A stretch of DNA of 64,000 nucleotides, taken from assembly GCF_000184745.1 (NCBI RefSeq), contig NC_014931.1:3286001-3350000 (forward strand). The letters are read 5' to 3'. Shown here in pieces: positions 10,064 to 32,482 of this stretch. The stretch's first letter is position 1; the number at the start of each line of letters is the position of its first letter. The stretch is from Variovorax paradoxus EPS (lineage in GTDB: Bacteria; Pseudomonadota; Gammaproteobacteria; Burkholderiales; Burkholderiaceae_C). The notes below the pieces were generated by a model, which did no database searches, was not told the origin of the DNA, and worked only from the letters and a program-made list of their open reading frames with translations. The position numbers and the translations under genes were made by a program.

Positions 10064-10065
10064 GC

Positions 10066-11019
10066 ATGTACGCAAGCGTCATCACCTCGCCGCGCCAAGT
10101 TGCGCTGCAACGCGTGCCGGTGCCCGAGCCCGGACCCGGCCAGTTGCTGCTCAAGCTGGAAGGCTCGGGCGTCTGCGCATCGAGCCTTCCGCTCTGGGAA
10201 GGCCGCGAATGGTTCGACTATCCGCAACCCGCCGGCGCGCCGGGCCACGAAGGCTGGGGCCGCGTGGCCGCGGTGGGCGAGGGCGTGCAGGGCGTCGCGG
10301 TGGGCGACCGCGTGGCCGCGCTCACCTACCGCGCGCATGCGGAGTACGACATCGCCGATGCGGGCGCCTTCGTGCCGCTGCCCGCCGCGCTGGCCGATGC
10401 CGCGATGCCTGGCGAGCCGCTGGGCTGCGCGGTCAACATCTTCCGGCGCAGCGACATCCGCGCGGGCCAGACGGTGGCGATTGTCGGCATTGGTTTCCTG
10501 GGCGCGATCCTCACGCGGCTCGCCGCGCGCGCCGATGCGCGGGTCATCGCGATCTCGCGGCGGCCGTTCTCGCTGGAGGTGGCGCGCAGCATGGGCGCGG
10601 CGCACACCATCGCGATGGAAGACCACCACCGCATCGTCGAGGAAGTGCGGCGCCTCACCGGCGGCGCGATGTGCGAGCGCACCATCGAGGCCGTGGGCCT
10701 GCAGTGGCCGCTCGACCTCGCGGGCGAGATCACCGGCGAGCGCGGCCGCCTCGTGGTCGCGGGCTACCACCAGGACGGCAAGCGCGAAGTCAACATGCAG
10801 ATGTGGAACTGGCGCGGCATCGACGTCATCAATGCGCACGAGCGCGATCCGCGCGCCTACGTGCAGGGCATCCGCGAGGCGGTCGACCTGATGGCATCGG
10901 GCGTGCTCGACCCAGCGCCGCTGTTCACGCACCGGCTGCCGCTGGACCGCCTCGGCGAAGCGCTCGAACTCACGCGCACGCGGCCCGATGGTTTCCTCAA
11001 GGCGGTGGTGACCGCATGA
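10066..11019 (+). CDS. Zinc-type alcohol dehydrogenase (MDR family)
   Basis: This 317-residue medium-chain dehydrogenase has an N-terminal GroES-like domain with Cys in GVCASS and the metal/active-site GHEGWG. Its Rossmann nucleotide-binding motif is VGIGFLGA. The structural-zinc four-cysteine loop is absent and the protein is shorter than typical alcohol dehydrogenases (about 340-370). It starts two bases after the previous stop. In this operon it may oxidise or reduce a hydroxyl of a sugar or cyclitol, perhaps together with the Gfo/Idh/MocA protein next to it. The substrate is inferred only from context. Confidence 0.85.
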   Translation: MYASVITSPRQVALQRVPVPEPGPGQLLLKLEGSGVCASSLPLWEGREWFDYPQPAGAPGHEGWGRVAAVGEGVQGVAVGDRVAALTYRAHAEYDIADAGAFVPLPAALADAAMPGEPLGCAVNIFRRSDIRAGQTVAIVGIGFLGAILTRLAARADARVIAISRRPFSLEVARSMGAAHTIAMEDHHRIVEEVRRLTGGAMCERTIEAVGLQWPLDLAGEITGERGRLVVAGYHQDGKREVNMQMWNWRGIDVINAHERDPRAYVQGIREAVDLMASGVLDPAPLFTHRLPLDRLGEALELTRTRPDGFLKAVVTA

Positions 11020-12071
11020 GCGCCGATCCGATCGCGGTGATGGAAGCCGCACCACACACCACAAGCTCGCCCCGCACGCGCATGCCGCACCGCCCGCGCC
11101 TGGGCTTCCTCGGCGTCGGTTGGATCGGCCGCAACCGCATGGAGGCGATCGCGATGGACGGCGCCGCCGAAATCGTCGCCATCGCGGACGCGGATGCGCA
11201 GATGCGCGATGCGGCGCGCGAACTCGAACCGGGCGCCGCATCGCTCGCCTCCATCGACGCGCTGCTCGACCTGCCGCTGGACGGCCTGGTCATCGCCACG
11301 CCGAGCGCGCTGCACGCGCAGCAGGCCGAGGCGGCGCTCGCGCGCGGCATCGCGGTGTTCTGCCAGAAGCCGCTCGCGCGCACCTCGGCCGAGACGCGCA
11401 GCGTGATCGATGCCGCGCGGCGCGCCGACCGGCTGCTGGGCGTGGACCTGTCGTACCGGCGCACGCAGGCGATGCAGCGGGTGCGCGAATGCGTGGAGGC
11501 CGGCACGATCGGCGAGGTGTACGCGGTCGACCTGGTCTTTCACAACGCCTACGGGCCCGACAAGCCCTGGTTCCGCGACCCAAAGCTCTCGGGCGGCGGC
11601 TGCGTCATCGACCTGGGCATCCACATGGTGGACCTCGCGCTGTGGACGCTCGGGTTCCCGCGCGTGCAGTCGGTCTCCAGCTCCCTGCACGCCGGCGGCC
11701 GCAAGCTCGTGCTGCCCAGCGCGGAGGTCGAGGACCATGCGGTCGCGCAGCTCGAACTGGCCAACGGCTGCGTGGTGCGGCTCGCGTGTTCGTGGAACCT
11801 GCCGGCGGGGCGCGATGCGGTGATCGAGGCGCACTTTCATGGCACCCGCGGCGGCGCCGCGATGCGCAACATCGATGGGTCGTTCTACGACTTCATCGCC
11901 GAGCGCTTCGAGGGCACGCGCGCGCTGCCGCTCGCCGTGCCGCCCGATGCCTGGGGCGGCCGCGCGGCGGTGCACTGGGCGCGCGTGCTGGCGGCGGGCG
12001 GGCGCTTCGATCCCGAAGTCGCGCGGCTCGCGCAGGTCGCCGAGGTGCTGGATGCGATCTATGCGCGCTGA
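11016..12071 (+). CDS. Gfo/Idh/MocA family oxidoreductase
   Basis: This is a 351-residue NAD(P)-dependent sugar/inositol dehydrogenase-like protein. The N-terminal motif GVGWIGRN follows a 28-residue polar leader. The usual EKP loop is QKP here (FCQKPLART), a conservative change in the cofactor/active-site loop. GGGCVIDLGIHMVDLALW matches the catalytic Asp/His helix of the family. It overlaps the preceding dehydrogenase gene by four bases. The family includes inositol 2-dehydrogenases, notable because inositol-phosphate synthase is encoded nearby; UDP-sugar 3-dehydrogenases are an alternative. Confidence 0.85.
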   Translation: MSADPIAVMEAAPHTTSSPRTRMPHRPRLGFLGVGWIGRNRMEAIAMDGAAEIVAIADADAQMRDAARELEPGAASLASIDALLDLPLDGLVIATPSALHAQQAEAALARGIAVFCQKPLARTSAETRSVIDAARRADRLLGVDLSYRRTQAMQRVRECVEAGTIGEVYAVDLVFHNAYGPDKPWFRDPKLSGGGCVIDLGIHMVDLALWTLGFPRVQSVSSSLHAGGRKLVLPSAEVEDHAVAQLELANGCVVRLACSWNLPAGRDAVIEAHFHGTRGGAAMRNIDGSFYDFIAERFEGTRALPLAVPPDAWGGRAAVHWARVLAAGGRFDPEVARLAQVAEVLDAIYAR

Positions 12072-13236
12072 ATCCACCGGACATGTGCTGATGACGGTCG
12101 ACACCGTCGGCGGCGTCTGGCACCAGGGGCTGGAGCTTGCGGCGGGCCTGGCGCGGCGCGGCATGCGCGTGTCGCTCGCGACCATGGGCGCGCGGCTCAC
12201 GCCGGCGCAGCGCGCGCAGGCGGCCGCGCTGCGCGGCGTGGCGCTGCACGAGAGCAGCTGGCGCCTCGAATGGATGGACGATGCCCGCGACGACGTGTGC
12301 CGTGCGGGCGACTGGCTGCTGGGCCTGGAAGCGCGGCTGCGGCCCGACGTGGTCCACCTGAACCAGTTCGCGTTCGGCGCCTGGCCCTTCGTGGCGCCCA
12401 CGCTCGTGGTCGCGCATTCGTGCGTGCTCTCGTGGTGGCGCGCGGTGCACGGCGAGCGCGCGCCCTCGTCATGGGACGCCTACCGCGACATCGTGCGCCG
12501 TGGTCTCGCCGGTGCCACGCTGGTGGGCGCGCCCACGCAGGCGATGCTCGATGCGCTGGCCTTCGAGCACGGCCATGTGCAGGGCGGCGTGGTGCTGCCC
12601 AACGGACGCAGCCCCGCGGACTTCCGGCCGGGCGAGAAGCAGCCCGTGATTCTTGCGGCCGGCCGCCTCTGGGACCCGGCCAAGAACCTCGCCGCGCTGG
12701 AAGCGGTGGCGCCGCGCCTGCCGTGGCCGGTGCGCGTGGCGGGCGCGTGCGTGGAGCCGGGGCGCATGGCGCCATGCACCACGGCGGCGGTACAGGCCTC
12801 GGCCGTGCAATGGCTCGGCGAACTCGCGCCGACGGAGCTGGCCGCGCAGTTCGCCGAGGCATCGATCTATGCGCTGCCGGCGCGCTACGAACCGTTCGGC
12901 CTCTCGGCCCTCGAAGCGGCGCTGTCGGGCTGCGCGCTGGTGCTCGGCGACGTGCCCAGCCTGCGCGAGGTGTGGGGCAATGCCGCCGTGTATGTGCCGC
13001 CCGGCAATGCCGGCGCCTTGCGCGCGGCGCTGATGCAGCTCATCGACGGCCCGCGGCAGCGCGAACAGATGGCGCACCGCGCCCGCATCCGCGCCCGTTG
13101 CTTCACGCCCTCGCGCATGGTGCAGGCCTACCTCGGCGCCTATGCGCGGCTGTGTGCGCCGAAGCACACAGTGGCCGATGCGGCAGTGCAGGCGCCAGTG
13201 CAACGACAACCGGAGGCGATCCCATGCGATTCGTGA
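12061..13236 (+). CDS. Glycosyltransferase family 4
   Basis: This is a 391-residue GT-B glycosyltransferase. The N-terminal domain opens with the donor/acceptor loop VDTVGGVWHQ. The C-terminal domain carries ILAAGRLWDPAKN and the retaining E-x7-E motif inside EPFGLSALEA. There are no membrane segments. ATG 12061 lies 11 bases before the stop of the previous gene; another in-frame ATG occurs at 12052. It is the only clear GT4 in the cluster and probably adds the first or branching sugar. Confidence 0.85.
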   Translation: MRAESTGHVLMTVDTVGGVWHQGLELAAGLARRGMRVSLATMGARLTPAQRAQAAALRGVALHESSWRLEWMDDARDDVCRAGDWLLGLEARLRPDVVHLNQFAFGAWPFVAPTLVVAHSCVLSWWRAVHGERAPSSWDAYRDIVRRGLAGATLVGAPTQAMLDALAFEHGHVQGGVVLPNGRSPADFRPGEKQPVILAAGRLWDPAKNLAALEAVAPRLPWPVRVAGACVEPGRMAPCTTAAVQASAVQWLGELAPTELAAQFAEASIYALPARYEPFGLSALEAALSGCALVLGDVPSLREVWGNAAVYVPPGNAGALRAALMQLIDGPRQREQMAHRARIRARCFTPSRMVQAYLGAYARLCAPKHTVADAAVQAPVQRQPEAIPCDS

Positions 13237-14345
13237 TCTTCTGCCATTCGCTCGTGTCCGACTGGAACCACGGCAACGCCCATTTCCTGCGCGGCATCTG
13301 CAGCGAGCTGATGGCGCGCGGCCACGAGGTGGCTGTGTACGAGCCGCGCGGCGCATGGAGCCGCGTGAATCTCGAAGCCGAGCACGCCCATGCAGTGGAA
13401 GGCTTCGCGCGCGCCTATCCGGAGCTGCACAGCACCGTGTTCGATCCCGACATGCTCGACCTCGACGAGGCGCTGGCTGGCGCCGACATGGTGCTCGTGC
13501 ACGAATGGAACCCGCATGCGCTGGTGCGCCGCATCGGCCTGCACCGCCGCGACGGCGGCCGCTACCGGCTGCTGTTCCACGACACGCACCACCGCTCGGT
13601 GAGCGACGCCGAGGGCATGGCCGCCTACGACCTCTCGCACTACGACGGCGTGCTCGCCTTCGGCGAAGTGATCCGCGAGCTCTACCGCCGCCGCGGCTGG
13701 GGCCGCCGTGCGTGGACCTGGCATGAGGCGGCCGACGTGCGGCGTTTCCATCCGTTGGACGACGTGGCGCCCGAGAGCGACCTGGTGTGGATCGGCAACT
13801 GGGGCGACGACGAGCGCGCCGCCGAGCTGGAGGAGTTTCTGTTCGCGCCCGTGCGCGCGCTCGGCCTCAGCGCCTGCGTGCACGGCGTGCGCTATCCGGC
13901 GGAGGCGCTTGCGCGGCTGAAGAGCGCCGGCATCGACTACGGCGGCTGGCTCCCCAACTACCGCGTGCCGCAGGTCTTCGCGCGCCACCGCGTCACCGTC
14001 CACGTGCCGCGCCGGCCGTACGTGCAGGCGCTGCCGGGCATACCGACGATCCGCGTGTTCGAGGCGCTGGCCTGCGGCATTCCGCTGGTGAGCGCGCCGT
14101 GGCGCGACAGCGAAGGCCTGTTCGCGCCGGGCCGGGACTTCCTGGTGGCGAACGACGGCGCCGCGATGCAGCGCCACCTGCGCGACCTTTTGAACGACCC
14201 GGCGCTCGCACGCGCGCTCATCGCGCAGGGCCTGGACACCGTGCGTGCCCGCCACACCTGCGCCCACCGCGTCGACGAACTTCTCGCCATCCATGCGCAG
14301 CTGGACGGCGAACGCACCCACAACCTCCGGAGCATTCCCGCATGA
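13224..14345 (+). CDS. CgeB-like glycosyltransferase (copy 1)
   Basis: This is a 373-residue soluble GT-B protein of the CgeB / Glyco_trans_1_2 type. The N-terminus has the nucleotide-sugar fold opening FVIFCHSLVSDWNHG. The C-terminal donor domain ends with IPTIRVFEALACGIPLVS and a characteristic EGLF-PGRDFL stretch. GGAGG precedes the ATG, which lies 13 bases inside the GT4 gene. It shares layout with the next two genes, so the three look like a tandem series derived by duplication. The acceptor is unknown. Confidence 0.8.
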   Translation: MRFVIFCHSLVSDWNHGNAHFLRGICSELMARGHEVAVYEPRGAWSRVNLEAEHAHAVEGFARAYPELHSTVFDPDMLDLDEALAGADMVLVHEWNPHALVRRIGLHRRDGGRYRLLFHDTHHRSVSDAEGMAAYDLSHYDGVLAFGEVIRELYRRRGWGRRAWTWHEAADVRRFHPLDDVAPESDLVWIGNWGDDERAAELEEFLFAPVRALGLSACVHGVRYPAEALARLKSAGIDYGGWLPNYRVPQVFARHRVTVHVPRRPYVQALPGIPTIRVFEALACGIPLVSAPWRDSEGLFAPGRDFLVANDGAAMQRHLRDLLNDPALARALIAQGLDTVRARHTCAHRVDELLAIHAQLDGERTHNLRSIPA

Positions 14346-15463
14346 CCCAGCCAGCAAGCCCGCCCATGAACATCGCCTTCTTCGCCTCCAGCCTGGTCTC
14401 GGCCTACTGGAACGGCGCGGCCACCTACTACCGGGGCATCGTGCGCGCGCTGCATGCGCGCGGCCACCGCGTGCGCTTCTACGAACCCGATGCCTTCGGC
14501 CGCCAGCAGCACCGCGACATCGACGATCCGCCCTGGGCCGAGGTGATCGTCTATCCGGGCGAGGGCGACGCGAACGCGCGCCGCATGGTCGAGCATGCGC
14601 GCGGTGCCGACCTCGTGGTGAAGGCCAGCGGCGTGGGCGTGTTCGACGAACTGCTCGAAGAAGCCGTGCTCGACCTGCGCGGCCCGAACACGCGTGTCGT
14701 GTTCTGGGACGTGGACGCGCCCGCCACGCTCGATCGCCTCGCGGCCGACTTCGCCGACCCGTTCCATGCGCTGGTGCCGCGCTACGACATGGTGCTCACC
14801 TATGGCGGCGGCGATCCGGTGGTCGAGGCCTACCGGCGCTTCGGCGCGCGCGACTGCGTGCCCATCTACAACGCGCTCGATCCCGACACCCACCATCCGG
14901 TCGAGGCCGATCCGCGCTTCGCAGCCGACCTGGGCTTTCTCGGCAACCGGCTGCCCGACCGCGAAGCCCGCGTCGATGCCTTCTTCCTGCGCGCGGCCGG
15001 GCTCCTGCCCGAGCGGCGCTTCCTGCTCGGCGGCAGCGGCTGGGACGACAAGCCCTTGCCCGCGAACGTGCGCAACCTCGGCCATGTCTACACCGCCGAC
15101 CACAACGCCTTCAACCGCTCGCCGATGGCGGTGCTCAACGTGAGCCGCGACAGCATGGCGCGCTACGGCTTCTCGCCGGCCACGCGCGTCTTCGAAGCCG
15201 CGGGTTCGGCCGCCTGCCTCATCACCGATGCATGGGAAGGCATCGAGCTTTTCCTGGAGCCGGGGCGCGAAGTGCTGGTGGCGCGCAACGGCGAGGAGGT
15301 CGCGGCGCACGTCGAGCGGCTCGATCCGGTGCGCGCCCGCCGCATCGGCGAGGCCGCGTACCGGCGCGTGCTGTCCGAGCACACCTATGCGCACCGCGCC
15401 GCGCAGCTCGAAGCGCTGCTCGAAGGCCGCGACGCCGCGCGCGCGGTGGAGGTGGCGGCATGA
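14342..15463 (+). CDS. CgeB-like glycosyltransferase (copy 2)
   Basis: This is a 373-residue soluble GT-B protein. It opens NIAFFASSLVSAYWNGAATY, closely paralleling copies 1 and 3, and ends with the donor-domain block RVFEAAGSAACLITDAWEGI followed by LEPGREVLVA. A YNALDPDTHHP segment between the domains is typical of CgeB-like proteins. Its ATG overlaps the stop of copy 1 (ATGA). It has no signal or membrane segment and is inferred to elongate the same glycan as its neighbours. Confidence 0.8.
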   Translation: MTQPASPPMNIAFFASSLVSAYWNGAATYYRGIVRALHARGHRVRFYEPDAFGRQQHRDIDDPPWAEVIVYPGEGDANARRMVEHARGADLVVKASGVGVFDELLEEAVLDLRGPNTRVVFWDVDAPATLDRLAADFADPFHALVPRYDMVLTYGGGDPVVEAYRRFGARDCVPIYNALDPDTHHPVEADPRFAADLGFLGNRLPDREARVDAFFLRAAGLLPERRFLLGGSGWDDKPLPANVRNLGHVYTADHNAFNRSPMAVLNVSRDSMARYGFSPATRVFEAAGSAACLITDAWEGIELFLEPGREVLVARNGEEVAAHVERLDPVRARRIGEAAYRRVLSEHTYAHRAAQLEALLEGRDAARAVEVAA

Positions 15464-16578
15464 GCGCGGCATCGACCGAACCGCTGAAGATCGTCGTCCT
15501 CGGGCTCTCGATCACGTCCTCCTGGGGCAACGGCCACGCGACCACCTACCGCGGCCTCGTGCGCGAGCTGGCGCGGCGAGGTCACGACGTGCTGTTCCTG
15601 GAGCGCGACGTGCCCTGGTACGCGAGCCACCGCGACCTGCCCGAGCCGCCAGATTCGAGCCATGGACGCACCGTGCTCTATGCGGACCTGCCGGCGCTGC
15701 AGCGCGCGCATGCACGGGACGTTGGCGAGGCCGACCTCGTGATGGTCGGCTCCTTCGTGCCCGACGGCATTGCGGTCGGCGACTGGGTGCAGTCGCAGGC
15801 CTCGGGCTGCACCGCCTTCTACGACATCGACACGCCCGTCACGCTCGCGGCACTCGGCCGCGACGGCACGAGCTACATCGAAGCGCGGCAGATCGCGGGC
15901 TACGACCTCTACCTGTCGTTCACCGGCGGTCCGACGCTGGAGCGGCTGCAGCGCGAGTTCGGTTCGCCGGCCGCGCGGCAGCTCTATTGCTCGGTCGATC
16001 CTGCCCTGTATTTCCCCGAGCCGGTGGCGCAGGACTGCGACCTCGGCTACATGGGTACCTACAGCGACGACCGGCAGCCCACGCTGGAGGCGCTGCTGCT
16101 GGAGCCCGCGCGCCAATGGCCCGAGGGCCGCTTCGAGGTGGCCGGCGCGCAGTACCCGGACGGCATCGTGTGGCCCGCCAACGTGCGCTACACCGCGCAC
16201 CTTCCGCCCGCGCAGCACCGCGCGTTCTACAACCGCCAGCGCTTCACGCTCAACGTGACGCGCGCCGACATGATCCGCGCGGGCTGGTCGCCGAGCGTGC
16301 GGCTCTTCGAGGCCGCGGCCTGCGGCACGCCGATCGTGAGCGACCGCTGGGACGGCATCGAGTCGTTGCTGGTGCCGGGCCGCGAGATCTTCCTGGCCGA
16401 TTCGCCGCGCGAGGTGACGCGGCTGCTGCGCGAGCTGCCCGAGGAAGAGCGGCGCGCGGTGGGCGAGCGCGCGCGGCAGCGCATCCTGGCCGAGCACACG
16501 GCCGCGCACCGCGCCGCCGAGCTGGAAGCGCATGCGCGCATGGCGCTGTTGCGGATGCCGGTGCGCGAGGCGGCATGA
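15460..16578 (+). CDS. CgeB-like glycosyltransferase (copy 3)
   Basis: This is a 372-residue protein of the same type as the two preceding ones. The N-terminus is IVVLGLSITSSWGNGHATTY, and the C-terminal block VRLFEAAACGTPIVSDRWDG is followed by LVPGREIFLA. The start overlaps the stop of copy 2 by four bases. The similarity to copy 2 in the C-terminal domain is the clearest of the set. Acceptor and sugar unknown. Confidence 0.8.
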   Translation: MSAASTEPLKIVVLGLSITSSWGNGHATTYRGLVRELARRGHDVLFLERDVPWYASHRDLPEPPDSSHGRTVLYADLPALQRAHARDVGEADLVMVGSFVPDGIAVGDWVQSQASGCTAFYDIDTPVTLAALGRDGTSYIEARQIAGYDLYLSFTGGPTLERLQREFGSPAARQLYCSVDPALYFPEPVAQDCDLGYMGTYSDDRQPTLEALLLEPARQWPEGRFEVAGAQYPDGIVWPANVRYTAHLPPAQHRAFYNRQRFTLNVTRADMIRAGWSPSVRLFEAAACGTPIVSDRWDGIESLLVPGREIFLADSPREVTRLLRELPEEERRAVGERARQRILAEHTAAHRAAELEAHARMALLRMPVREAA

Positions 16579-16592
16579 AAGAAGGAGACCGC

Positions 16593-17432
16593 ATGCAGCA
16601 TCCATCGTCCGTTTCCCTGTCCGACACGGTGGCCGCCTTCGATGCGGCCGGCCGCGAGCCCTCGGTGCGCGAGCAGATCGAGGCGCTCGGCCCGTGGTTC
16701 CACAACCTGCACCTGCCGGGCGGCGTGCAGACGACGCCCGAGCACTTTCTGGGTGGCGATTTCCCGAACTTCAAGTGGCAGGAGATCCGGCCCTTCGTGC
16801 CCGAGGACCTGAGCGGCTGGCGCGTGCTCGACGTGGGCTGCAACGCGGGCTTCTACAGCTTCGAGCTCGCGCGGCGCGGCGCCTCGGTGCTCGGCATCGA
16901 TGTCGACGAGCACTACCTCGCGCAGGCGCGCTGGGCGGCCAGGCAGCTCGGGCTGGGCGCGCAGGTGGAGTTCCGGAAGATGCAGGTCTACGACCTCGCG
17001 CGCACCGATGCGAGCTTCGACCTCGTCTGGTTCATGGGCGTCTTCTATCACCTGCGCTATCCGCTGCTCGCACTCGACCTGTTGGCCGAGCGCACCCGCC
17101 GCATGCTGATGTTCCAGACGCTCACCATGCCGGGGGATTCGGTCTACGGGCCGTTAGAGGACTGTTCCATCGACGATCGCGCGCCGCTGCTGGAAAGCGG
17201 CTGGCCGCGCATGGCCTTCATCGAGCACCGGCTGGCCGGCGATCCGACGAACTGGTGGGCGCCCAACCATGCGGGCGTCGAGGCGATGCTGCGAAGCAGC
17301 GGCTTGCGTGTGGAGGCGCGCCCGGGCCACGAGATCTACCTGTGCGTGCCCGATGCGGAGGCGCGACGCGGCCGGGCGATGTTCGAATCGCAGTACGCCG
17401 CGGCCACGGGAGCCATCGGTGAAGGAAGCTGA
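16593..17432 (+). CDS. SAM-dependent methyltransferase of a glycan cluster
   Basis: This is a 279-residue class I methyltransferase. Motif I is VLDVGCNAGFYS, followed by the acidic strand end GIDVDEHY. FNLHLPGGVQTTPEH-like and NWWAPNHAG segments are distinctive of a family I recall as named after a Ramlibacter gene (Rta_06860); this was not verified. AAGGAG lies six bases before ATG 16593, so that start is preferred over ATG 16575, which overlaps the preceding stop. It probably O-methylates the glycoside made by the cluster, but a tRNA-type or small-molecule acceptor cannot be excluded. Confidence 0.8.
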   Translation: MQHPSSVSLSDTVAAFDAAGREPSVREQIEALGPWFHNLHLPGGVQTTPEHFLGGDFPNFKWQEIRPFVPEDLSGWRVLDVGCNAGFYSFELARRGASVLGIDVDEHYLAQARWAARQLGLGAQVEFRKMQVYDLARTDASFDLVWFMGVFYHLRYPLLALDLLAERTRRMLMFQTLTMPGDSVYGPLEDCSIDDRAPLLESGWPRMAFIEHRLAGDPTNWWAPNHAGVEAMLRSSGLRVEARPGHEIYLCVPDAEARRGRAMFESQYAAATGAIGEGS

Positions 17433-18016: not shown

Positions 18017-18250
18017 TCAGCCGTCGCAAGTACTGCTGCGGCTGCCGTCGGCCAGCGCCGCGCGGCCCGTCGGCGTCACCGCGAGAAAGCGGCCCCACTC
18101 GCGGGACTCGCCATCCCGCACGGAGCGCAAGGTGAATGCGGCGACAAAGCCGGCCGCGCGCAGCACCACGAGGTTGTTGATCTCGTCGGGCTGCGTGAGC
18201 GTGAGCGGTGCCTTGGAGCGGCTCAGCCGGTCGAGGAATTCGATGCACAT
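18017..18250 (-). CDS. Small hypothetical protein, possible winged-helix paralogue
   Basis: This 77-residue protein lies 36 bases downstream of rpoN on the same strand. ATG 18250 is preceded by a purine-rich AAGAAG; an upstream GTG at 18280 would add ten residues. The order of features (LxxxxxPL, a helix with LRAAGFVAA, a basic strand, VTPTGRAAL) parallels the small proteins at 110-406 and 39951-40259. No known family recognised. It may be co-transcribed with the sigma-54 gene. Confidence 0.55.
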   Translation of the reverse strand: MCIEFLDRLSRSKAPLTLTQPDEINNLVVLRAAGFVAAFTLRSVRDGESREWGRFLAVTPTGRAALADGSRSSTCDG

Positions 18251-18286
18251 GGTCTTCGCGTCTTCTTTCTGCGGTTGCACACCTTG

Positions 18287-19714
18287 TCAGGCTGCTGCGG
18301 CCGCGAGCCGGGCGCCGCGCGCGCGGCGTCGCTCCACCGGGTCGATGTCCAGCGTCTGCCGGTACTTGGTGATGGTGCGGCGGGCGATGTGAAAGCCCTG
18401 CTGCGCCAGTTGCCGAGCGAGCGCGGCGTCGCTCAGCGGCGCGGTCGGCGGCTCGATCGCAATGAGCTCGCGAATGAGCTGCTGCACCGCCACCGGCGCG
18501 CTCGCGCCGCCGGCCGTGTGCTGCAGGCCGCGCGAGAAGAAGTACTGCAGCTCGAACACGCCCGCGGGCGTGGCGATGTACTTGTTGTTCACCGTGCGCG
18601 AGACGGTCGAGGCATGCACGCCCACCTCGTCGGCGATTTCCTTCAGGCCCAGCGGCTTCATCGCGAGCGGCCCGTGCTCCAGGAACATCTGCTGGCGCGC
18701 CACGATGGCACGCGCCACCTCCAGGATGGTCGAGGTGCGCTGCGCCACGGTACCCACCATCCAGCGCGCCTGTTCGAGGTAGGCCTTGAGCGCGCCGGTG
18801 TGGGCCCCGCGCCGCGTGTCGAGCAGTTGCGCACAGGCGGTGTTCAGCCGCACGCGCGGCACCGCATGCGGGTTGAGCGTGGTGCGCCACGCGCCGCGCA
18901 CCTTCTTCACGGTGACGTCGGCGACGACGAGGCGCGCGCCGGTCTCGCCATGGCCCCAGCCCGGGCGCGGGTTCAGCCGCCGGATGCCGGCGACTGCGCA
19001 CTGCACCTCGGCGAGCGGCGCGCCGGCTGCGCGCGCGATGCCGGCGAAGTCCTGTGCGGCGAGCAGGTCGATATGGCGCTCCAGGATGCGCTGCGCGAGC
19101 GCGCGCACCGGCACCGGCTCGATCGCATCGAGCTGCAGGCAGAGGCATTCGGGCACGCTGCGGGCCCCCACGCCGGCCGGGTCCAACGCCTGCACGCGGC
19201 GCAGCGCGGTGCGCATCTCGTCTTCGGTGTCGTCGGGGTTTTCACCGAGGGCGAGAGCGATGTCGCCGAGCGGCATGCGCAGGTAGCCGTCGTCGTCCAG
19301 CGCCTCGACCACCGCATGGGCCAGCGCCGCATCGCGCTCGTCCAGGCGCAGCACGCCGAGCTGCGCATGCAGGTGCGCCGACAGCGACTCCGGCAGCGCC
19401 AGGCGCTGCATCGCATCGAGGCTTTCGTCGTGCGAGAGGTGGCGCGTGCCCGCGGGCGGCGCCGCGGTGATGCGGTCGAACGCGGCCTCGGCTTCAGAGC
19501 TCGCTTCAGACCGTACCGGCTCCGCCAGCGCTTCGGGCGTGCCGCCCACCGAGGGTTCGTCGATTTCGAGAAAGGGGTTCAGCTCCGCCGCGTCGCGAAG
19601 AGCCTCTGCATATTCCTGCGAAGAAAGCTGGAGCAGCCGTACGGCATGCTGCAGCCGGGGAGAGAAGATCGCGGCCTGCGCCTGCCGCGCCTGCATGGCA
19701 ATGGATGAATTCAT
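18287..19714 (-). CDS. rpoN: RNA polymerase sigma-54 factor (RpoN paralogue)
   Basis: This 475-residue protein has the three regions of sigma-54. Region I is an activator-interacting, Gln/Leu-rich N-terminus (SPRLQHAVRLLQLSSQEY). The core-binding domain follows, then the HTH block LKEIADEVGVHASTVSRTVN and the C-terminal RpoN box ARRTITKYRQ (consensus ARRTVAKYRE). The neighbours are not the usual lptB/hpf genes, so this is probably a second copy. An exact -24/-12 element sits at 19729-19743 on the same strand, only 15 bases from ATG 19714. The transcript would then be nearly leaderless, or translation starts at ATG 19696. The sigma-54 activator encoded 0.7 kb away is a likely partner. Confidence 0.9.
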   Translation of the reverse strand: MNSSIAMQARQAQAAIFSPRLQHAVRLLQLSSQEYAEALRDAAELNPFLEIDEPSVGGTPEALAEPVRSEASSEAEAAFDRITAAPPAGTRHLSHDESLDAMQRLALPESLSAHLHAQLGVLRLDERDAALAHAVVEALDDDGYLRMPLGDIALALGENPDDTEDEMRTALRRVQALDPAGVGARSVPECLCLQLDAIEPVPVRALAQRILERHIDLLAAQDFAGIARAAGAPLAEVQCAVAGIRRLNPRPGWGHGETGARLVVADVTVKKVRGAWRTTLNPHAVPRVRLNTACAQLLDTRRGAHTGALKAYLEQARWMVGTVAQRTSTILEVARAIVARQQMFLEHGPLAMKPLGLKEIADEVGVHASTVSRTVNNKYIATPAGVFELQYFFSRGLQHTAGGASAPVAVQQLIRELIAIEPPTAPLSDAALARQLAQQGFHIARRTITKYRQTLDIDPVERRRARGARLAAAAA

Positions 19715-19728
19715 GGCGATGGACACGC

Positions 19729-19743
19729 GCAATGGTCGTGCCA
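19729..19743 (-). promoter_or_regulatory. Candidate sigma-54 (-24/-12) promoter of rpoN
   Basis: Read on the minus strand this is TGGCACGACCATTGC, an exact match to the TGGCACG-N4-TTGC consensus with the required GG-N10-GC spacing. It lies directly upstream of and facing the rpoN paralogue, suggesting positive autoregulation by sigma-54. With uniform bases only about 0.03 exact matches would be expected in 64 kb on both strands (simple 4^-11 estimate). Confidence 0.65.
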
Positions 19744-19885
19744 GGAAAAAATCCGAAAAGCGCGCGCAAAACGAGGTTGAAAGTGTGCAATTCGATGCAC
19801 GAGACACGGCACCCAGAACGCCTTGCAGCAATTCTTGCAACGCCGTCCGACTGACAAGGCTGCTTCGTTGGCCCACACTGGCGGT

Positions 19886-20266
19886 ATGAAAAACATTCGA
19901 AACGGCATGCGAGCGCCCGCGGGGCGATGGACTGCAGGCGTGTTGGCCGGTGCGTTTGCAAGCATCGTCGGCGTGGCGCTCGGTTCGGGCCTGCGGCGGC
20001 AAGGCGGAGCGCGCGGGCGCGTCTCGGTGGAGCGGCAACTGGCCGCGCTGCGCGCGCACACGGCGCGCCAGGCGCAGGCGGCACGGCAACTCGACCACGA
20101 CCTGCGCGCACCGGTCGGTGCGATGGCGGTGGCGCTCGAACTCATGAGCACCACCGACGATCCCTCGTTGAAGCAAGAGGCGATGCAGGTGCTCGAGCGG
20201 CAGATCGCGCGTATGAATACGCTGACACATCGAGTGCACGAATTCTCACGCGAGTTCAACGGTTGA
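19886..20266 (+). CDS. Membrane-anchored DHp-only protein (histidine-kinase dimerisation domain without ATPase)
   Basis: This is a 126-residue protein. A basic N-terminus and one hydrophobic segment (about residues 16-35) form a probable membrane anchor. The remainder resembles the dimerisation/phosphotransfer helices of histidine kinases, with an H-box LDHDLRAPVGAM around residue 70 and a second helix ending in RVHEFSREF. No N, G1 or G2 ATP-binding boxes follow, so it cannot be a complete kinase. It could be a phosphotransfer or kinase-dimerisation partner. It lies between rpoN and the sigma-54 activator gene. Confidence 0.65.
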   Translation: MKNIRNGMRAPAGRWTAGVLAGAFASIVGVALGSGLRRQGGARGRVSVERQLAALRAHTARQAQAARQLDHDLRAPVGAMAVALELMSTTDDPSLKQEAMQVLERQIARMNTLTHRVHEFSREFNG

Positions 20267-20378: not shown

Positions 20379-21821
20379 TTGGCGCACGCATTGATCGTTG
20401 AGGACGACGAAGATTCGGCCCGCATGATGGCCGCGCTCGTCGCGCGGGAGGGGCACTCGGTGATGTGCGCGAATTCGCTCGTCGCCGCGCGCCGGCTGAT
20501 GGTGATGCAGCGGCCCGACCTGCTCTTGCTCGACCTGCACCTGCCCGACGGCGACGGCTTCGAGCTGCTCGACGACAAGAACGAGGCCTTGAGCGACACC
20601 GTGCTGGTGCTCATGACCGGCCAGGCGAGCCTGGAGACATCGATCCGCGCCATGCGCCTGGGCGCGGCCGACTACCTCGTGAAGCCCATCAACCCGCAGC
20701 ACCTGAAGGGCCTGCTATCGCGCCTGATCGCACCGTCGCAGTTGCGCGCCGAGTTCGACGAGGTCGAGGAACTCTGGCGCGAGACCGGGCGCTTCGGCCC
20801 GCTGATCGGCCGCTCGCAGGAGATGCAGCGGGTGTACAGGCAGATTTCGCGCGTGGCGCGCACCGCGGTCACCGTGTTCATCCACGGCGAGAGCGGCACC
20901 GGCAAGGAACTGGTGGCGCGCGCGGTGCACGACATGAGCCGCCGGCGCGAGCAGCCCTTCCTGGCGGTGAACTGCGGCGCGCTCTCGCCCAGCCTGATCG
21001 AGAGCGAGATCTTCGGCCACGAGCGCGGCAGCTTCACCGGTGCCGAACGCCAGCACCAGGGCTTTTTCGAACGCGCGCACGGCGGCACGCTGTTCCTGGA
21101 CGAAGTGACCGAGATGCCGCTGGAGCTGCAGGTGAAGCTGCTGCGGGTGCTGGAGACCGGCACCTTCATGCGCGTGGGCTCCACGCAGGTGCAGCAGACC
21201 GATGTGCGCGTGATCGCGGCAACCAACCGCGATGCGGCCGCGGCGGTGGCGAGCGGCCGCATGCGCGAAGACCTGCTCTACCGGCTCAACGTATTCCCCA
21301 TCGCCTTGCCGCCGCTGCGCGAGCGCGGCGACGACATCGGGCTCATCGCGAGCGACTTCCTGCAGGACATGGCGCGCCAGGAAGGCGGCGGCGCCAAGCA
21401 CCTGAGCCAGGGTGCGCACGCGCGCCTTGCGGCCTGGCGCTGGCCGGGCAATGTGCGCGAGCTGCGCAATGTGCTGCAGCGCGCCTGGGTGATGGCGAGC
21501 GGATCGGAGATCGACGAGGAATGGCTGCCCGCGCCGTCCGCACAGCCTTTGCGCGAGACACCGGAGGCGCCGCGCAATGGCGGGGCCTTCGCCATGCCAT
21601 CGACGACCGCATTCGACACCGGGCGCGACAGCGCGCCCGCGCCGCTCGTGCCGGGCGGCCAGCAGCTCGTGGTCGAGGTCGGAACGCAGCTTGCCGATGT
21701 GGAGCGGCAGCTCATCCTCGCCACCTACGAGCGCTGCGGGCGCCACAAGGAGCGCACCGCCGCGCTGCTGGGCATCAGCATGAAGACCCTCTACAACCGG
21801 CTCAAGGAATACCAGCAGTAG
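20379..21821 (+). CDS. Sigma-54-dependent response regulator (NtrC family)
   Basis: This 480-residue regulator has a complete receiver domain (acidic pair at residues 8-10, phospho-acceptor Asp52, Lys102). An AAA+ domain follows with Walker A GESGTGKE (170-177) and Walker B TLFLDE. The sigma-54-contacting loop GSFTGA (217-222) has Ser in place of the usual Ala. A Fis-type HTH lies at the C-terminus (HKERTAALLGISMKTLYNRL). Translation appears to start at TTG 20379, preceded by GGAG. Its place beside an rpoN paralogue and the large hybrid kinase suggests a dedicated pathway. Confidence 0.9.
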   Translation: MAHALIVEDDEDSARMMAALVAREGHSVMCANSLVAARRLMVMQRPDLLLLDLHLPDGDGFELLDDKNEALSDTVLVLMTGQASLETSIRAMRLGAADYLVKPINPQHLKGLLSRLIAPSQLRAEFDEVEELWRETGRFGPLIGRSQEMQRVYRQISRVARTAVTVFIHGESGTGKELVARAVHDMSRRREQPFLAVNCGALSPSLIESEIFGHERGSFTGAERQHQGFFERAHGGTLFLDEVTEMPLELQVKLLRVLETGTFMRVGSTQVQQTDVRVIAATNRDAAAAVASGRMREDLLYRLNVFPIALPPLRERGDDIGLIASDFLQDMARQEGGGAKHLSQGAHARLAAWRWPGNVRELRNVLQRAWVMASGSEIDEEWLPAPSAQPLRETPEAPRNGGAFAMPSTTAFDTGRDSAPAPLVPGGQQLVVEVGTQLADVERQLILATYERCGRHKERTAALLGISMKTLYNRLKEYQQ

Positions 21822-21863: not shown

Positions 21864-24800
21864 TTGAACGATTCCACGCCCGACAGGGCCGAAGAAGAAG
21901 GCGCCACGCAGTTGGACGATGCGGTGCCGTCGTTCGGCTATGGCCTCCTGCCCCTGGTGGGCCTGGCCGGCGCCGCGGGGAGCGTCGAGGCGCTGTGCGC
22001 GTTCCTGCAGGGCACCGCGTCCGATTCGGGCATGGCCTTCGTCGCCGTGCTGAACCTGTCCGACCGCGGGCCGAAGGCATTTGCCGATCTCGTCCAGACG
22101 CTGCGCGCGGCGACGGCGCTGCCTGTGGTGCCGGTCGACCAGCGGGTGCGCCTCGCACCCGACACCCTCCATGTGCTGCCGCCCGGCAGGCCGCCGCACA
22201 TGCGCGGCAATTTCATCGAACCGGCCGAGCTGCCGGCGGGCGGCGGGCGCCACCTGCCGGCGGACCTTTTCTTTCGCACGCTCGCGGATTCGCATGGCCC
22301 GCATGCGACGGCGGTGGTGCTCTCGGGGCCGGACGGCGACGGCACCATCGGCATCAAGCGCGTCAAGGAGCGCGGGGGCCTGACCATCGTTCAGGACCCG
22401 CGCGAGTCGGCCGAGGGGGGCATGGCGCAGACGGCCCTCGCGACCGGCATGGTCGACTGGGTGCTGCCGGCGCGCGAGATGGGCACGCGCATCGCCGCGT
22501 ACTACCGCCTCGAATCGCAGCTGCGCCTGCCGCCCGAACAGCCGCCGGCGCACGACGCCGCGCTCGCCGAGGCCGCGCTGACGGACCCCGGCGAAGCGGC
22601 CTTGCGCGAGGTGCTGGCCTTCGTGCGCGACCGCACCGGCCGCGATTTCGACGACTACAAGCGCGCCACGGTGCTGCGGCGCCTCGGCCGGCGCATGCAG
22701 GTGAACGGCGTGGGCAACCTGCAGGCCTACCTCGACTGCCTGCGCACGCGGCCCGGCGAGGCGGGCGCGCTGGTGCACGACATGCTCATCAGCGTGACCA
22801 ACTTCTTTCGCGACAGCGACAGCTTCGCCGCACTGGAAGCGCGCGTGCCGGAGCTCTTTCGCCACAAGGGCCCGGACGACACGCTGCGCGCCTGGGTGGT
22901 GGCCTGCGCCACTGGCGAGGAGGCGTATTCGATCGCGATGCTGCTGAGCGAACACGCGCGCACGCTGGAGAGCCCACCGTCCATCCAGGTCTTCGCGACC
23001 GACCTGGACGAGGAGGCGGTGCGAGCCGCGCGCGACGGCATCTACCCGCTGGCGGCCGAGGCCGACCTGGGCGAAGAGCGCATCCGGCAGTTCTTCGTGC
23101 GCGAGCCGCGCGGCCTGCGGGTGCGGCGCGAACTGCGCGAGATGGTGCTGTTCGCGGTGCACGACGTGCTGCGCGACGCGCCGTTCGCGCGCATCGACCT
23201 GGCGACCTGCCGCAACCTGCTCATCTACCTGAACCGCGATGCGCAGACGCGCGTGCTGGAGACGCTGCACTTCGCGATGTACCCGGGCGCGCCGCTGTTC
23301 CTCGGCGTCTCGGAGGCGGCGGACGGCGACGGGCGCCTGTTCGCCGTGGCCGACAAGCCGCACCGCATCTACCTGCGCTGCCAGTCGCGCGCGGGCGCAC
23401 CGGTGCCGCCCCGGCCCGTCGGCCCGCCAAGAGCGGCCGCGGCGCGGCACTCGCAGGCGGTGATCCCCCTGGCGGCGATTGCGCCGCCCGTCGCACCGCA
23501 GGCCATGCTGCCGACCCTGCGCGGCGGGCAAACCATGACCTGGGCCGAAATGCACCTGCAGCTGGTCGACCTGCTGGCGCCGCCCTCGATCCTGGTGGAC
23601 GCCGGGCACGAGATGCTGCACATCTCGCCCGCGGCCACGGCGTTCCTGTACTTCGGCGGCGGCGAGCCTTCGCGCAACGTGATGCAGGCCATCGTGCCCG
23701 ACCTGAAGGCCGAACTGCAGACGGCGCTCCATCACGCGCACGAGCGGCACGAGCCTGTGGAGGTGGCGCCGGTGCGGGCGCGCATCGCCGGCGGCGAGGT
23801 GGAGGTGACCGTCAGCGTGCGGCCGGTGGAGGCGTTCGGCGGCGGCTTCCTGGTGCTGCTGCGCCGCCAGGACTTGCGCCAGGACGCGCTCGAGGGGAAT
23901 TCCGGCGAAACCGCCCCTGCGGCCGGCGACGCCTTCGCCGTCCTGCCGCGTATGAAGCCCGAGCCCATCGCCAGCCACCTGGAGCGCGAGGTCGGACGCC
24001 TGAAGGCGCGCCTGCGCCAGACGGTGGAGCAGTACGAGGTCTCGACCGAGGAGCTCAAGGCGAGCAACGAAGAGCTGCACGCCATGAACGAGGAACTGCA
24101 TGCGGCCGCCGAGGAGCTGGACACCAGCCGCGAGGAGCTGCAGTCGATCAACGAAGAGCTGACCACGGTCAACCAGGAACTGAAGAACAAGGTCGACGAC
24201 CTGGGCCATGCCAACAGCGACATCGTGAATCTGATGGACGCGACGGCCATCGCCACCGTGTTCCTGGACCGGAACCTGCGCGTGATGCGCTTCACGCCGA
24301 GCGCGGCGACCATCTTCAAGCTGATCGCGAGCGACACGGGGCGCCCGCTCTCGGACCTGGTCACCGGGCTGGACTACCCCGAGCTCTCGGACGATGCGCG
24401 CGCCGTGCTGCGCTCGCTGCAGCCTTCGGAGCGCGAAGTGGGCGACGCGCGGGGCAACTGGTATCTGGCGCGCGCGCGGCCCTACCGCACCATCGAGGAC
24501 GTGATCGCCGGCGTGGTGCTGAGCTTCGTGGACATCACCGAGCGCAAGGTCGCACAGGAATCACTCAGGCAATCTCAGGAGCGCTTCAGCGCCATCGTGA
24601 ACCAGGCCTCGGTGGGCGTGGCGCAGATGCGGCTGGACGGCGAGATCACCTTCGCCAACACCTGCTACCGCGCGCTCACCGGCTACGGGGACGACGAGCT
24701 CCTGGGCCGGCGTGTGCTCGATTTCGTGCACCCGGCGGACCTTCCGGCGACGCAGTCGCTCTTCGAGCAGCTCGCCGCGCAGGGCAAGCCGTTCCAGGCC

Positions 24801-26534
24801 GAGAACCGCATCGTGCGCAAGAACGGCGAGGTCATGTGGCTGCACAAGAGCGTGACGGTGCTCACCGACGGCGGCGGCCGGCCCGACTCGGCGCTGATCG
24901 TCTGCACCGACGTGAGCGAGCGCAAGTTGGCCGAGGAAGCGCTGCGCGAGAGCCAGGAGCGCATGCGGCTGATGCTGGAGAACGCGATCGAGTACGCCAT
25001 CTTCTCGGTCGACATGGAACGCCGCGTGACGAGCTGGAACGCCGGCGCCGAGCGGCTGCTGGGCTACAGCGAGCAGGAGATCCTCGGCCGCTCGGCCGAC
25101 CTGATCTTCACCGAGGAAGACCGCGCCGCCGGCGCACCGGTCGAGGAGGCCCGCACCGCGCTCGCCGAAGGCCGCGCGGCGGACGACCGGCTGCACCAGC
25201 GCAAGGACGGCTCGCGCTTCTGGGCCAGCGGTGCGCTCATGCCAATGCACGACGGCGAGGGCAGGTCGATCGGACTGGTGAAGGTGCTGCGCGACCAGAG
25301 CAAGCAGCGCGCCGCGCAGCAGGAACTGGAGCAAAGCCGCGGCGAGCTGCTCTCCGCGCTGCGCGCCAACGAGGCCGCGCGCCGCGCGCTGGAAACGGCC
25401 GACGCGGCGAAAGACCGCTTTCTGGCGGTGCTCTCGCACGAGCTGCGCAACCCGCTCGCCTCGATCAGCGGCGCGGCCGAGCTGCTCGCGCCCGAATCGC
25501 TCGCCACGCAGGACCAGGCACGTGCCGCCCGCGTGATCCGCCGCCAGGCCTCGGTCATGAAGGTCATGCTGGGCGAGCTGCTCGACGTGTCGAGCCTGCG
25601 GCAGGGCCGGCTTGCGCTCAGCCGCGAGCGCATCAGCGCGCAGGCCATTGCGGATGCGGCGCTGGAGACGGTGCGGCCGCTCATCGAGCACGGGCGCCAC
25701 ACGCTCGATCTGGACATCGCCGAGGAAGAGATCGCGCTGGACGCCGACCCGATCCGGCTCAGCCAGGTGCTGTCGAACCTGCTGTCGAACGCCGCCAAGT
25801 ACACGCCCGCGCCGGGGCGCATCGCGCTGTCGGTGCGGGCCGAGGCGCGCGACGCGGTGTTCGAGGTGACCGACGACGGCATCGGCATGGAGCCCGAGTC
25901 GATCGAGACGATGTTCGAGATGTTCGTGCAGAGCGAGCATGCGCACGCGCGCGCCAACGGCGGCCTGGGCATCGGTCTGGCGCTGGTGCGCAACATCGTG
26001 GAGCTGCACGGCGGCACCGTCACCGGCCACAGCGAAGGGCTGGGTCGGGGCTGCCGCTTCACGGTGCGGATTCCCACCGCGCGGCCGGCCGCGGCCATGT
26101 CGACGCTCGCGCCCGAAGCCGGCGGCGAGGCGCCGGTGCGGCTGCAGCGGCTTCTGCTCGCCGACGACAACGTCGATGCGCTCTGGGGCCTGGAGCAGAT
26201 GCTCTCCAGGGCGGGCTTCGAGGTCGAGACAGTGAACAACGGCATCGATGCGCTGCGCGTGGCACAGGCGCTGCGCCCCGATGCGGCGGTGCTCGACATC
26301 GGCATGCCCGGCATGGACGGCCACGAGGTGGCGCGCCGCATCCGCGCCGAACCCTGGGGCCGCGAGCTCGTGCTGATCGCCGCCACCGGCTGGGGCCAGC
26401 CGGCCGACCGGGCCGCGGCGCTGGCGGCGGGGTTCGACGAGCATGTCGCCAAGCCGGTGACGGCCTCCGACCTGCAGCGGCTGCTGCGCGCGCACGAGGC
26501 GGGCCGCCAGGCACGCCGTTTGCCCGATGCATGA
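21864..26534 (+). CDS. CheB-CheR-PAS hybrid sensor histidine kinase with receiver
   Basis: This is a 1,556-residue cytoplasmic fusion. The domains run CheB-like (about 25-220), CheR methyltransferase (about 240-510), a long Glu/Leu-rich coiled coil (about 700-780), three PAS domains (about 785-1155), HisKA (His1192 in SHELRNP), HATPase (about 1290-1410, N-box NLLSNAAKYTP) and a receiver (about 1430-1550, Asp1478). In CheR, TNFFRD, ACATGEEAYS and CRNLLIYL are intact. In CheB the catalytic Ser and His are replaced (Ala37 and Asn64 by alignment to GASAGG and VQHL), so the methylesterase is probably inactive. TTG 21864 is the start, with AAGGA five bases upstream. The likely target is the sigma-54 activator encoded 42 bases upstream. 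Confidence 0.9.
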   Translation: MNDSTPDRAEEEGATQLDDAVPSFGYGLLPLVGLAGAAGSVEALCAFLQGTASDSGMAFVAVLNLSDRGPKAFADLVQTLRAATALPVVPVDQRVRLAPDTLHVLPPGRPPHMRGNFIEPAELPAGGGRHLPADLFFRTLADSHGPHATAVVLSGPDGDGTIGIKRVKERGGLTIVQDPRESAEGGMAQTALATGMVDWVLPAREMGTRIAAYYRLESQLRLPPEQPPAHDAALAEAALTDPGEAALREVLAFVRDRTGRDFDDYKRATVLRRLGRRMQVNGVGNLQAYLDCLRTRPGEAGALVHDMLISVTNFFRDSDSFAALEARVPELFRHKGPDDTLRAWVVACATGEEAYSIAMLLSEHARTLESPPSIQVFATDLDEEAVRAARDGIYPLAAEADLGEERIRQFFVREPRGLRVRRELREMVLFAVHDVLRDAPFARIDLATCRNLLIYLNRDAQTRVLETLHFAMYPGAPLFLGVSEAADGDGRLFAVADKPHRIYLRCQSRAGAPVPPRPVGPPRAAAARHSQAVIPLAAIAPPVAPQAMLPTLRGGQTMTWAEMHLQLVDLLAPPSILVDAGHEMLHISPAATAFLYFGGGEPSRNVMQAIVPDLKAELQTALHHAHERHEPVEVAPVRARIAGGEVEVTVSVRPVEAFGGGFLVLLRRQDLRQDALEGNSGETAPAAGDAFAVLPRMKPEPIASHLEREVGRLKARLRQTVEQYEVSTEELKASNEELHAMNEELHAAAEELDTSREELQSINEELTTVNQELKNKVDDLGHANSDIVNLMDATAIATVFLDRNLRVMRFTPSAATIFKLIASDTGRPLSDLVTGLDYPELSDDARAVLRSLQPSEREVGDARGNWYLARARPYRTIEDVIAGVVLSFVDITERKVAQESLRQSQERFSAIVNQASVGVAQMRLDGEITFANTCYRALTGYGDDELLGRRVLDFVHPADLPATQSLFEQLAAQGKPFQAENRIVRKNGEVMWLHKSVTVLTDGGGRPDSALIVCTDVSERKLAEEALRESQERMRLMLENAIEYAIFSVDMERRVTSWNAGAERLLGYSEQEILGRSADLIFTEEDRAAGAPVEEARTALAEGRAADDRLHQRKDGSRFWASGALMPMHDGEGRSIGLVKVLRDQSKQRAAQQELEQSRGELLSALRANEAARRALETADAAKDRFLAVLSHELRNPLASISGAAELLAPESLATQDQARAARVIRRQASVMKVMLGELLDVSSLRQGRLALSRERISAQAIADAALETVRPLIEHGRHTLDLDIAEEEIALDADPIRLSQVLSNLLSNAAKYTPAPGRIALSVRAEARDAVFEVTDDGIGMEPESIETMFEMFVQSEHAHARANGGLGIGLALVRNIVELHGGTVTGHSEGLGRGCRFTVRIPTARPAAAMSTLAPEAGGEAPVRLQRLLLADDNVDALWGLEQMLSRAGFEVETVNNGIDALRVAQALRPDAAVLDIGMPGMDGHEVARRIRAEPWGRELVLIAATGWGQPADRAAALAAGFDEHVAKPVTASDLQRLLRAHEAGRQARRLPDA

Positions 26535-29069: not shown

Positions 29070-29178
29070 GAAATAGCTCCTGGGTCTTGAGTGGGTTGAT
29101 GAAAAGGGAAATGCGTCGGGGGCGACGGGCGCCGCTCGGCGCATTCGTGCGCATCGCGGCCGCCCGATGGAAGTCGCG

Positions 29179-29193
29179 GCAAGCGGCATGCCG
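29179..29193 (-). promoter_or_regulatory. Possible sigma-54-like promoter of Mn catalase
   Basis: On the minus strand this reads CGGCATGCCGCTTGC, with GG-N10-GC spacing and nine of eleven consensus bases. It lies 110 bases before the catalase start and points towards it. Matches of this quality occur by chance in a 64-kb window, but the extended form GGCATGCCGnTTGC is shared with the elements at 31276 and 40317. Confidence 0.35.
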
Positions 29194-30330: not shown

Positions 30331-30354
30331 TTCGTCCTGCGCTCGTCCTGCGCC

Positions 30355-31615: not shown

Positions 31616-32215
31616 TCAGTCGAAAGGAATCGCCGCGCGCAGCACCTTCAGCTCGAAGGAGCGCGCCAGCACCGCGTCGAAACCCGCGGCGCTGCTGGTG
31701 GCCGGCAGGCCCCGCGTGGCCACCGCATCCTCGATGGCGATCAGCCGCCCATCGAAACCGGCGCCGCGTGCCAGCCGGCCCAGCGAGCGGGCTTCGCCGG
31801 CCGAGGTGCGCAGATCGATCACCGCGAAATCCGGCTGCTCGCGCACCAGCGCTTCATAGCCGGTCACGGTATTCACCGCGAGATCGATCCGGTAGCCCGC
31901 ATGCGAGAGCAGTCCGGCAAGGCGTGCGAGGAGGTGCATGTCGTCCGAGACCACGAGCGCGCGCTCGCTCTCGGCGGTGCCGTGCCGCGCGTGGGTCATG
32001 AGCTCGCCGATGCGCTCGGCGAGTTCGTGCGCCTGACGCGCGACCACCGCGCCGGCCTTGTGCAGCACCGCGGGCGGCGCATCGTCGCGCGCCAGCACCT
32101 CGGTGGCGGCGGAAATGGCGGCGAGCGCATTGCGCGCATCGTGCGCACAGCGATCGAGTCGGGTGGGAGCGCGAAGAGACATGGACGGATTCATGGCGGA
32201 GGGAATGGCGGACAT
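31616..32215 (-). CDS. DHp-like plus degenerate receiver protein
   Basis: This is a 199-residue protein. Residues about 15-75 resemble the dimerisation/H-box helices of a histidine kinase (CAHDARNALAAISAATEVL). Residues about 85-199 look like a response-regulator receiver with a candidate phospho-acceptor Asp in FAVIDLRT, but the conserved Lys before the last strand is Arg (VLARSF). There is no ATPase domain. AGGAGC stands before ATG 32215. It could be a phosphorelay intermediate in the stress signalling of this region. Confidence 0.6.
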   Translation of the reverse strand: MSAIPSAMNPSMSLRAPTRLDRCAHDARNALAAISAATEVLARDDAPPAVLHKAGAVVARQAHELAERIGELMTHARHGTAESERALVVSDDMHLLARLAGLLSHAGYRIDLAVNTVTGYEALVREQPDFAVIDLRTSAGEARSLGRLARGAGFDGRLIAIEDAVATRGLPATSSAAGFDAVLARSFELKVLRAAIPFD

Positions 32216-32482
32216 GGCGCGATGCTCCTGCACGCGGTGTGCCTGCCGGTCGCGAAGTCGCAGAGGGCGCACCGGGTGCGCGGGCGTCAGTCTTGCGGCA
32301 AGTTTTGCCGGCACGGAAAAGACTTACAGCGGCCGTGCAGCGTGGATGACACGCGCGGCGCCGCGAGTGCCCACCATGGGATTTCAGCGGGCACCTTGCG
32401 GCACAGATCCAAAGACACAGCCGCGGGCCTCGTTGCCGATCCGGCATTTGCAAGCAATCCATTTTTTGAAGGAGTCCACCCC

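Follow-up and report, generated by a model that had tools for sequence, protein, structure and literature searches.

Genes for a second sigma-54 factor that stand behind sigma-54 promoters are already known, as are pairs of an RpoN copy and its activator (PMC11999139). In R. solanacearum, rpoN2 is listed with the sigma-54 site TGGCACAGCCTTTGCA at 63, and mutation of rpoN1 abolishes expression of rpoN2 (PMC4371752). Like the gene described here, it is the second rpoN of a betaproteobacterium and has a sigma-54 site upstream; it differs in lying on a megaplasmid, and the comparison covers its published description. The rhizobial rpoN2 genes of R. etli and M. loti are likewise second rpoN genes, but their context is symbiosis. 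The M. loti prxS-rpoN2 promoter is discussed together with NifA (PMC3538637). The neighbors of R. etli rpoN2 are nifQ and a gene for a peroxiredoxin instead of one for an NtrC-type regulator, and we take the rhizobial parallel as an analogy only.

Two alphaproteobacterial systems offer further points of comparison. In Cereibacter sphaeroides, RpoN3 and AprX likewise pair a specific RpoN copy with a REC-bearing enhancer-binding protein, and the measured target is xrpA (PMC11999139). In Bradyrhizobium DOA9, fewer targets are predicted for the accessory RpoN, and both RpoNs bind rpoN promoters in EMSA; the accessory copy is megaplasmid-borne, and the comparison with ours is by description (PMC13207237).

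The locus studied here lies in a window of 64 kb (bases 3286001-3350000) in the single 6,550,056-base contig of a Variovorax genome. The nearest named relatives are Variovorax sp. J22G73 (80% identity over the best segment) and V. boronicumulans (76%). We propose, with a probability of about 0.7, that rpoN2 would be switched on by a divergently encoded regulator acting through an upstream motif on a -24/-12 element, with RpoN1 serving first and the resulting rpoN2 mRNA being leaderless. The features involved are collected in the table.

Features of the rpoN2 locus and of a possible second target in the window
Feature	Position	Strand	Basis or remark
Small ORF, 87 aa, possibly in the rpoN2 operon	18017..18280	-	Just downstream of rpoN2
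rpoN2, second sigma-54 gene, 475 aa	18287..19714	-	Three sigma-54 Pfam domains and RpoN2 clade
Predicted 3-nt leader, +1 at 19717	19715..19717	-	Spacing from the -12 C
-24/-12 element TGGCACGACCATTGC	19729..19743	-	Read directly; 10/11 or 11/11 in 26/26 loci
Candidate enhancer (UAS) GCAAGAATTGCTGCAA	19823..19838	-	Exact motif, kept at 25/26 loci within one mismatch
Degenerate counterpart of second upstream half-palindrome	19867..19877	-	4/11 mismatches in the window, weak
HisKA-only protein, 126 aa, no ATPase domain	19886..20266	+	PF00512 8.8e-08, above cut-off
NtrC-type response regulator, proposed activator	20379..21821	+	REC, Sigma54_activat, HTH_8
CheB-CheR-PAS hybrid histidine kinase ending in a receiver	21864..26534	+	Pfam domains
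HisKA-like protein, 199 aa, candidate second target	31616..32215	-	PF00512 21.0 versus 26.9 bits, below cut-off
Weak sigma-54-like site AGGCACACCGCGTGC, 8/11	32230..32244	-	64 nt past the second motif
Second exact motif copy	32293..32308	-	Genome motif search

The 6.55-Mb genome holds two sigma-54 (rpoN) genes. The canonical setting of rpoN1 has lptB directly upstream and, read by eye, rpoN1 (C1:523341-524525) lies directly 3' of the end of an lptB-like ORF; the ORF downstream of it is phospholipase-D-like and not hpf. No lptB adjoins rpoN2 in the window. A preliminary description of this DNA had judged the window's gene to be probably a second sigma-54 outside the lptB context, as the two loci bear out; of the lptB and hpf neighbors that it regarded as usual, lptB was found at the other copy and hpf was not.

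The rpoN1 product is 41% identical to the window's RpoN2 over residues 86-465. RpoN2 itself belongs to the sigma-54 family, with the domains PF00309, PF04963, and PF04552 all above cut-off (E-values of 1e-10 for the AID, 8.5e-50 for the CBD, and 3.7e-54 for the DBD). By hand count, RpoN2-type matches occur in 31 of 101 genomes of the genus, this one included, with at most 16 candidates scored per genome. We read the window and 25 relatives (L042-L066) over 15-20 kb as a set of 26 loci, in which G036 was kept though its RpoN2 groups with other genera; the remaining RpoN2 genomes were represented by short loci only (G074, G075, G076, and G099) or by a 6-kb piece (G044).

The phylogenetic tree was built from 38 chosen rows, several outer ones being long, with RpoN2 of G079 and R. 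solanacearum not among them. The Burkholderiales RpoN2 clade comprised 33 rows (support 100/99), in which the window's gene grouped with RpoN2-type proteins from other genera; the RpoN1 of the same genome, a long row, lay outside. Within this clade, the Variovorax-type copies formed a group of 15 rows (support 100/100), and the Burkholderia cenocepacia copy was sister to the clade on a long branch. A grouping with the rhizobial-type RpoN2 of R. etli was not recovered among these 38 rows: the R. etli row fell outside the Burkholderiales clade, with an unsure placement on a very long branch (3.96). By its domains and its place in the tree, the window's gene is a true sigma-54 paralogue of the Burkholderiales RpoN2 clade.

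The 87-aa ORF that follows rpoN2 has no Pfam match; ORFs 54-60% identical to it occur downstream of rpoN2 in 11 of the 25 relatives. In G061, a C-terminal rpoN2 remnant (L067, G061:C11:134215-134526) covers residues 371-474 at 90% identity and adjoins a copy of this ORF (75%), which suggests that the rest of rpoN2 was lost in that genome.

Upstream of rpoN2, the minus strand reads TGGCACGACCATTGC (19743-19729), followed by 14 nt and then ATG 19714. The element has the GG-N10-GC spacing and matches all 11 fixed positions of TGGCACG-N4-TTGC. The exact -24/-12 element described earlier is thus present, points at rpoN2, and is conserved; its closeness to the ATG also holds, at 14 nt instead of the 15 bases given before. 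The next base is G, whereas the longer consensus given in PMC4371752, TGGCACRNNNNTTGCW, ends in W.

TGGCACGACCATTGC is the sole 11/11 site in the 64-kb window. The genome-wide count of TGGCACG-N4-TTGC, which the preliminary description had suggested as a check, gave 7 exact sites versus 2 for the backwards pattern, and one-mismatch sites (90+88 versus 80+73 backwards) were near background. Sequence alone is therefore modest evidence only, and these counts would also suit an element that is no working promoter, in which case an upstream promoter of the ordinary kind would serve rpoN2 and the match would be due to chance or to some other purpose. Conservation of the element argues against this explanation. 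Indeed, a sigma-54-type element lies at most 300 bp upstream of rpoN2 in all 26 loci, 22 of them at 11/11 and 4 at 10/11, versus 0.7% of Markov-resampled sequences reaching 10/11 or better. On the opposite strand of the same 26 stretches, the best score was 9/11, in a single case. The distance from element to start codon differs among the loci.

An earlier scoring gave 23 loci at 11/11 and 6 at 10/11 among 29 of 32 loci, a set in which L003/L007 and L004/L008 are the same loci and the three unscored ones were covered by a separate reading. Furthermore, a family-level search gave RpoN2-type loci in other genera, of which we examined the 30 that ranked highest. The element reached at least 10/11 in 21 of them and 9/11 in the remaining 9, compared with 0.8% (at least 10/11) and 11% (at least 9/11) in the resampled control. 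There, the best element stood at varied distances, about 50-280 bp upstream, and 3 of the 30 opposite strands also reached at least 10/11. These results confirm that rpoN2 is preceded by a conserved sigma-54-type element.

The spacing between element and start codon bears on the same question. Sigma-54 transcription is taken to start 12 nt past the -12 C. With start points predicted in this manner, five loci have leaders of 0-3 nt (G083 0, G063 1, G026 2, G079 2, and the window 3), and none of these five carries a Shine-Dalgarno-like motif. The predicted leaders of the other 21 loci measure 15-53 nt, and a Shine-Dalgarno motif is found in 19 of them. That five genes without a Shine-Dalgarno motif have their start codon at or within 3 nt of the predicted +1 also speaks against a promoter elsewhere, and we consider it highly improbable that the element is no promoter.

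In the tree, the window and G026 form a pair with G008 (31-nt leader) as sister, and G063 and G083 form another pair in a group completed by G029 and G093, whose leaders measure 15-16 nt. This pattern suggests two or more losses of the leader, in every case down to at most 3 nt from the predicted start point. Such a repeated cut-back to the predicted +1 is expected if transcription starts there and translation is leaderless.

The preliminary description had offered a choice between a nearly leaderless mRNA and a true start at ATG 19696. G026, a close relative, has CTG in place of the latter codon, whereas both G026 and G079 retain ATG 19714, and we discarded 19696 as the start; the leaderless alternative stands as a prediction. 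In the stretch read, G026 and G083 have no other in-frame start, and further in-frame ATGs lie downstream in the window and in G079. Taken together, the pattern of leader lengths and Shine-Dalgarno motifs favors a leaderless rpoN2 mRNA starting at ATG 19714.

Between rpoN2 and the divergent regulator gene stands the palindromic motif GCAANNNTTGCNGCAA (GCAA-N3-TTGC-N-GCAA), which begins 85-108 bp before the -24 T in 25 of the 26 loci. It is exact in 19 (in reverse orientation in G036) and has one mismatch in 6. We defined the motif on the 26 sequences themselves. Its core TTGCNGCAA is exact in 20 of them, whereas 100 resamplings gave 0.33 on average and never more than 2; the motif also occurs at the rpoN2 genes of G044, G074, G075, and G099, which lie outside the definition set. 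A second upstream half-palindrome is present in some relatives.

The window holds the only two exact copies of the motif in this genome, and the backwards control gave none; motif and element occur together once in the genome, at rpoN2. Allowing one mismatch gave 27+27 motif matches versus 16+10 in the backwards control, and many such matches are thus due to chance. Across the 101 genomes, motif and element together gave 55 matches. By eye, from their coordinates, 21 of these lie upstream of rpoN2 and 1 upstream of an rpoN2 fragment; 33 lie elsewhere, versus 6 in the backwards control.

The NtrC-type regulator is divergent from rpoN2 in 24 of the 25 relatives, where it is 68-88% identical, RpoN2 being 52-81% identical. 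At E <= 1e-120, with at most 15 candidates scored per genome, it was found in 36 of 101 genomes. Cross-tabulated by hand, these are 30 of the 31 genomes with RpoN2 versus 6 of the 70 without it. Among those 6 is G061, the carrier of the rpoN2 remnant; the RpoN2 genome without the regulator is G044, whose rpoN2 lies at a contig edge. A second regulator, 78% identical, is encoded elsewhere in this genome and in G008.

A genuine sigma-54 promoter could also be driven by some other enhancer-binding protein, without the motif and the neighboring regulator. Three observations would suit such an arrangement. The locus L059 lacks the motif at its rpoN2, though element and regulator are there; in G036, both element and motif are present, but the regulator is not adjacent and lies at a distance of about 7.8 kb; and the recognition helix of the regulator, KTLYNRLKEY, is identical in L102, the one comparable locus without rpoN2, so that the helix does not tie the motif to the regulator. 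Divergent linkage and co-occurrence of regulator and RpoN2 point the other way, and at 7 of the 8 regulator loci without an adjacent rpoN2 (L100-L107) no motif is found within one mismatch, L106 being the one that has it. On balance, we regard activation by another protein as unlikely, and the neighboring regulator as the probable activator.

Two further signaling genes flank this regulator. The H-box of the HisKA-only protein was found by regular expression in 17 of the 26 loci. The hybrid kinase is a possible source of phosphate for the regulator, and the two proteins could form a phosphorelay.

Under the reading that we prefer, the NtrC-type regulator, once phosphorylated in response to a putative signal, would bind the palindromic motif about 95 bp upstream and, so bound, activate the sigma-54 RNA polymerase at the -24/-12 element. 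RpoN1, which is independent of the rpoN2 promoter, would serve in the initial rounds, after which RpoN2 may keep up its own production. The mRNA would begin about 3 nt before ATG 19714 and be translated as a leaderless message.

RpoN1 should fire first because a sigma-54 gene behind a sigma-54 promoter needs either another sigma-54 or a second promoter. The alternative, put forward in the preliminary description on the model of some rhizobial rpoN2 genes, is strict autoregulation, in which RpoN2, and not RpoN1, would transcribe rpoN2 from the element. The element does adjoin its own gene and is conserved with it, and in Cereibacter each RpoN copy studied works with its own activator (PMC11999139). 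However, a gene that requires its own product has no way of being switched on in the first place. In M. loti, mutation of rpoN2 leaves the prxS-rpoN2 promoter active (PMC3538637), and both Bradyrhizobium DOA9 RpoNs bind both rpoN promoters in EMSA (PMC13207237). Since rpoN2 of R. solanacearum has such a promoter and needs RpoN1 (PMC4371752), by analogy an RpoN1-to-RpoN2 cascade appears more likely than autoregulation, with self-reinforcement by RpoN2 as a possible addition; in its strict form, we judge autoregulation quite improbable.

The second exact copy of the motif directs attention to a gene for a HisKA-like protein. Among 14 chosen sequences, the spacing of 64 nt between motif and weak sigma-54-like site also occurs in L043 and L055 (with one mismatch in the L055 motif) and measures 52 nt in L051, 104 nt in L050, and 110 nt in L042. 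Products similar to the HisKA-like protein lie behind the site in L042, L043, L050, and L055. This gene is therefore a plausible second target, judging from the arrangement of sites.

Among 30 of the 54 one-mismatch motif matches, a sigma-54-like site of at least 9/11 follows downstream at three places: rpoN2, a galE-like gene (two overlapping motif matches), and a place without a convincing gene (also two overlapping matches). The galE-like gene and its 9/11 site are preceded, at C1:3283738-3283797 just outside the left end of the window, by two near-motif copies with 44 bp between them. Among the matches read in a genus-wide search for tandem motifs, this pair did not recur at galE, and the galE-like gene is a weak lead as a member of the regulon.

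Other genes near rpoN2 deserve mention. A sugar-nucleotide and glycosyltransferase-like cluster (2986-17432) includes UDP-glucose dehydrogenase and myo-inositol-phosphate synthase, its other names having been read from the ORFs. A methyltransferase and DUF1003 gene from this cluster lie at most 20 kb from rpoN2 in 12 of the 25 relatives, a mere hint concerning targets. Stress-type genes (28119-32986) encode a manganese catalase, a CinA-like protein, a pyridine-nucleotide-disulphide oxidoreductase, and a DUF2383 protein.

A broader version of the proposal is a self-contained switch. In this genome, the exact enhancer motif of the regulator would serve only rpoN2 and one nearby signaling gene; RpoN2 would take over its own promoter, lock the state, and control the neighboring surface-sugar and stress genes; and on two occasions in Variovorax the message would have lost its leader, shortened in both cases to the sigma-54 start point. 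We hold this extended version to be doubtful, though conceivable.

In the literature searched, with most subscription journals outside its scope, we found no account of Variovorax rpoN2 or of its sigma-54 with an enhancer-binding protein. The conserved divergent pairing with the motif, together with the repeated loss of the leader, appears to be new, as we have seen neither described. The two classes of leader length provide an evolutionary reading of the sigma-54 start point that does without RNA data. More generally, the authors of the R. solanacearum work called the role of the second sigma-54 enigmatic (PMC4371752), and the present locus bears on why many Betaproteobacteria keep one. As candidate activator, enhancer motif, and promoter are all visible and conserved, this question becomes testable in Variovorax.
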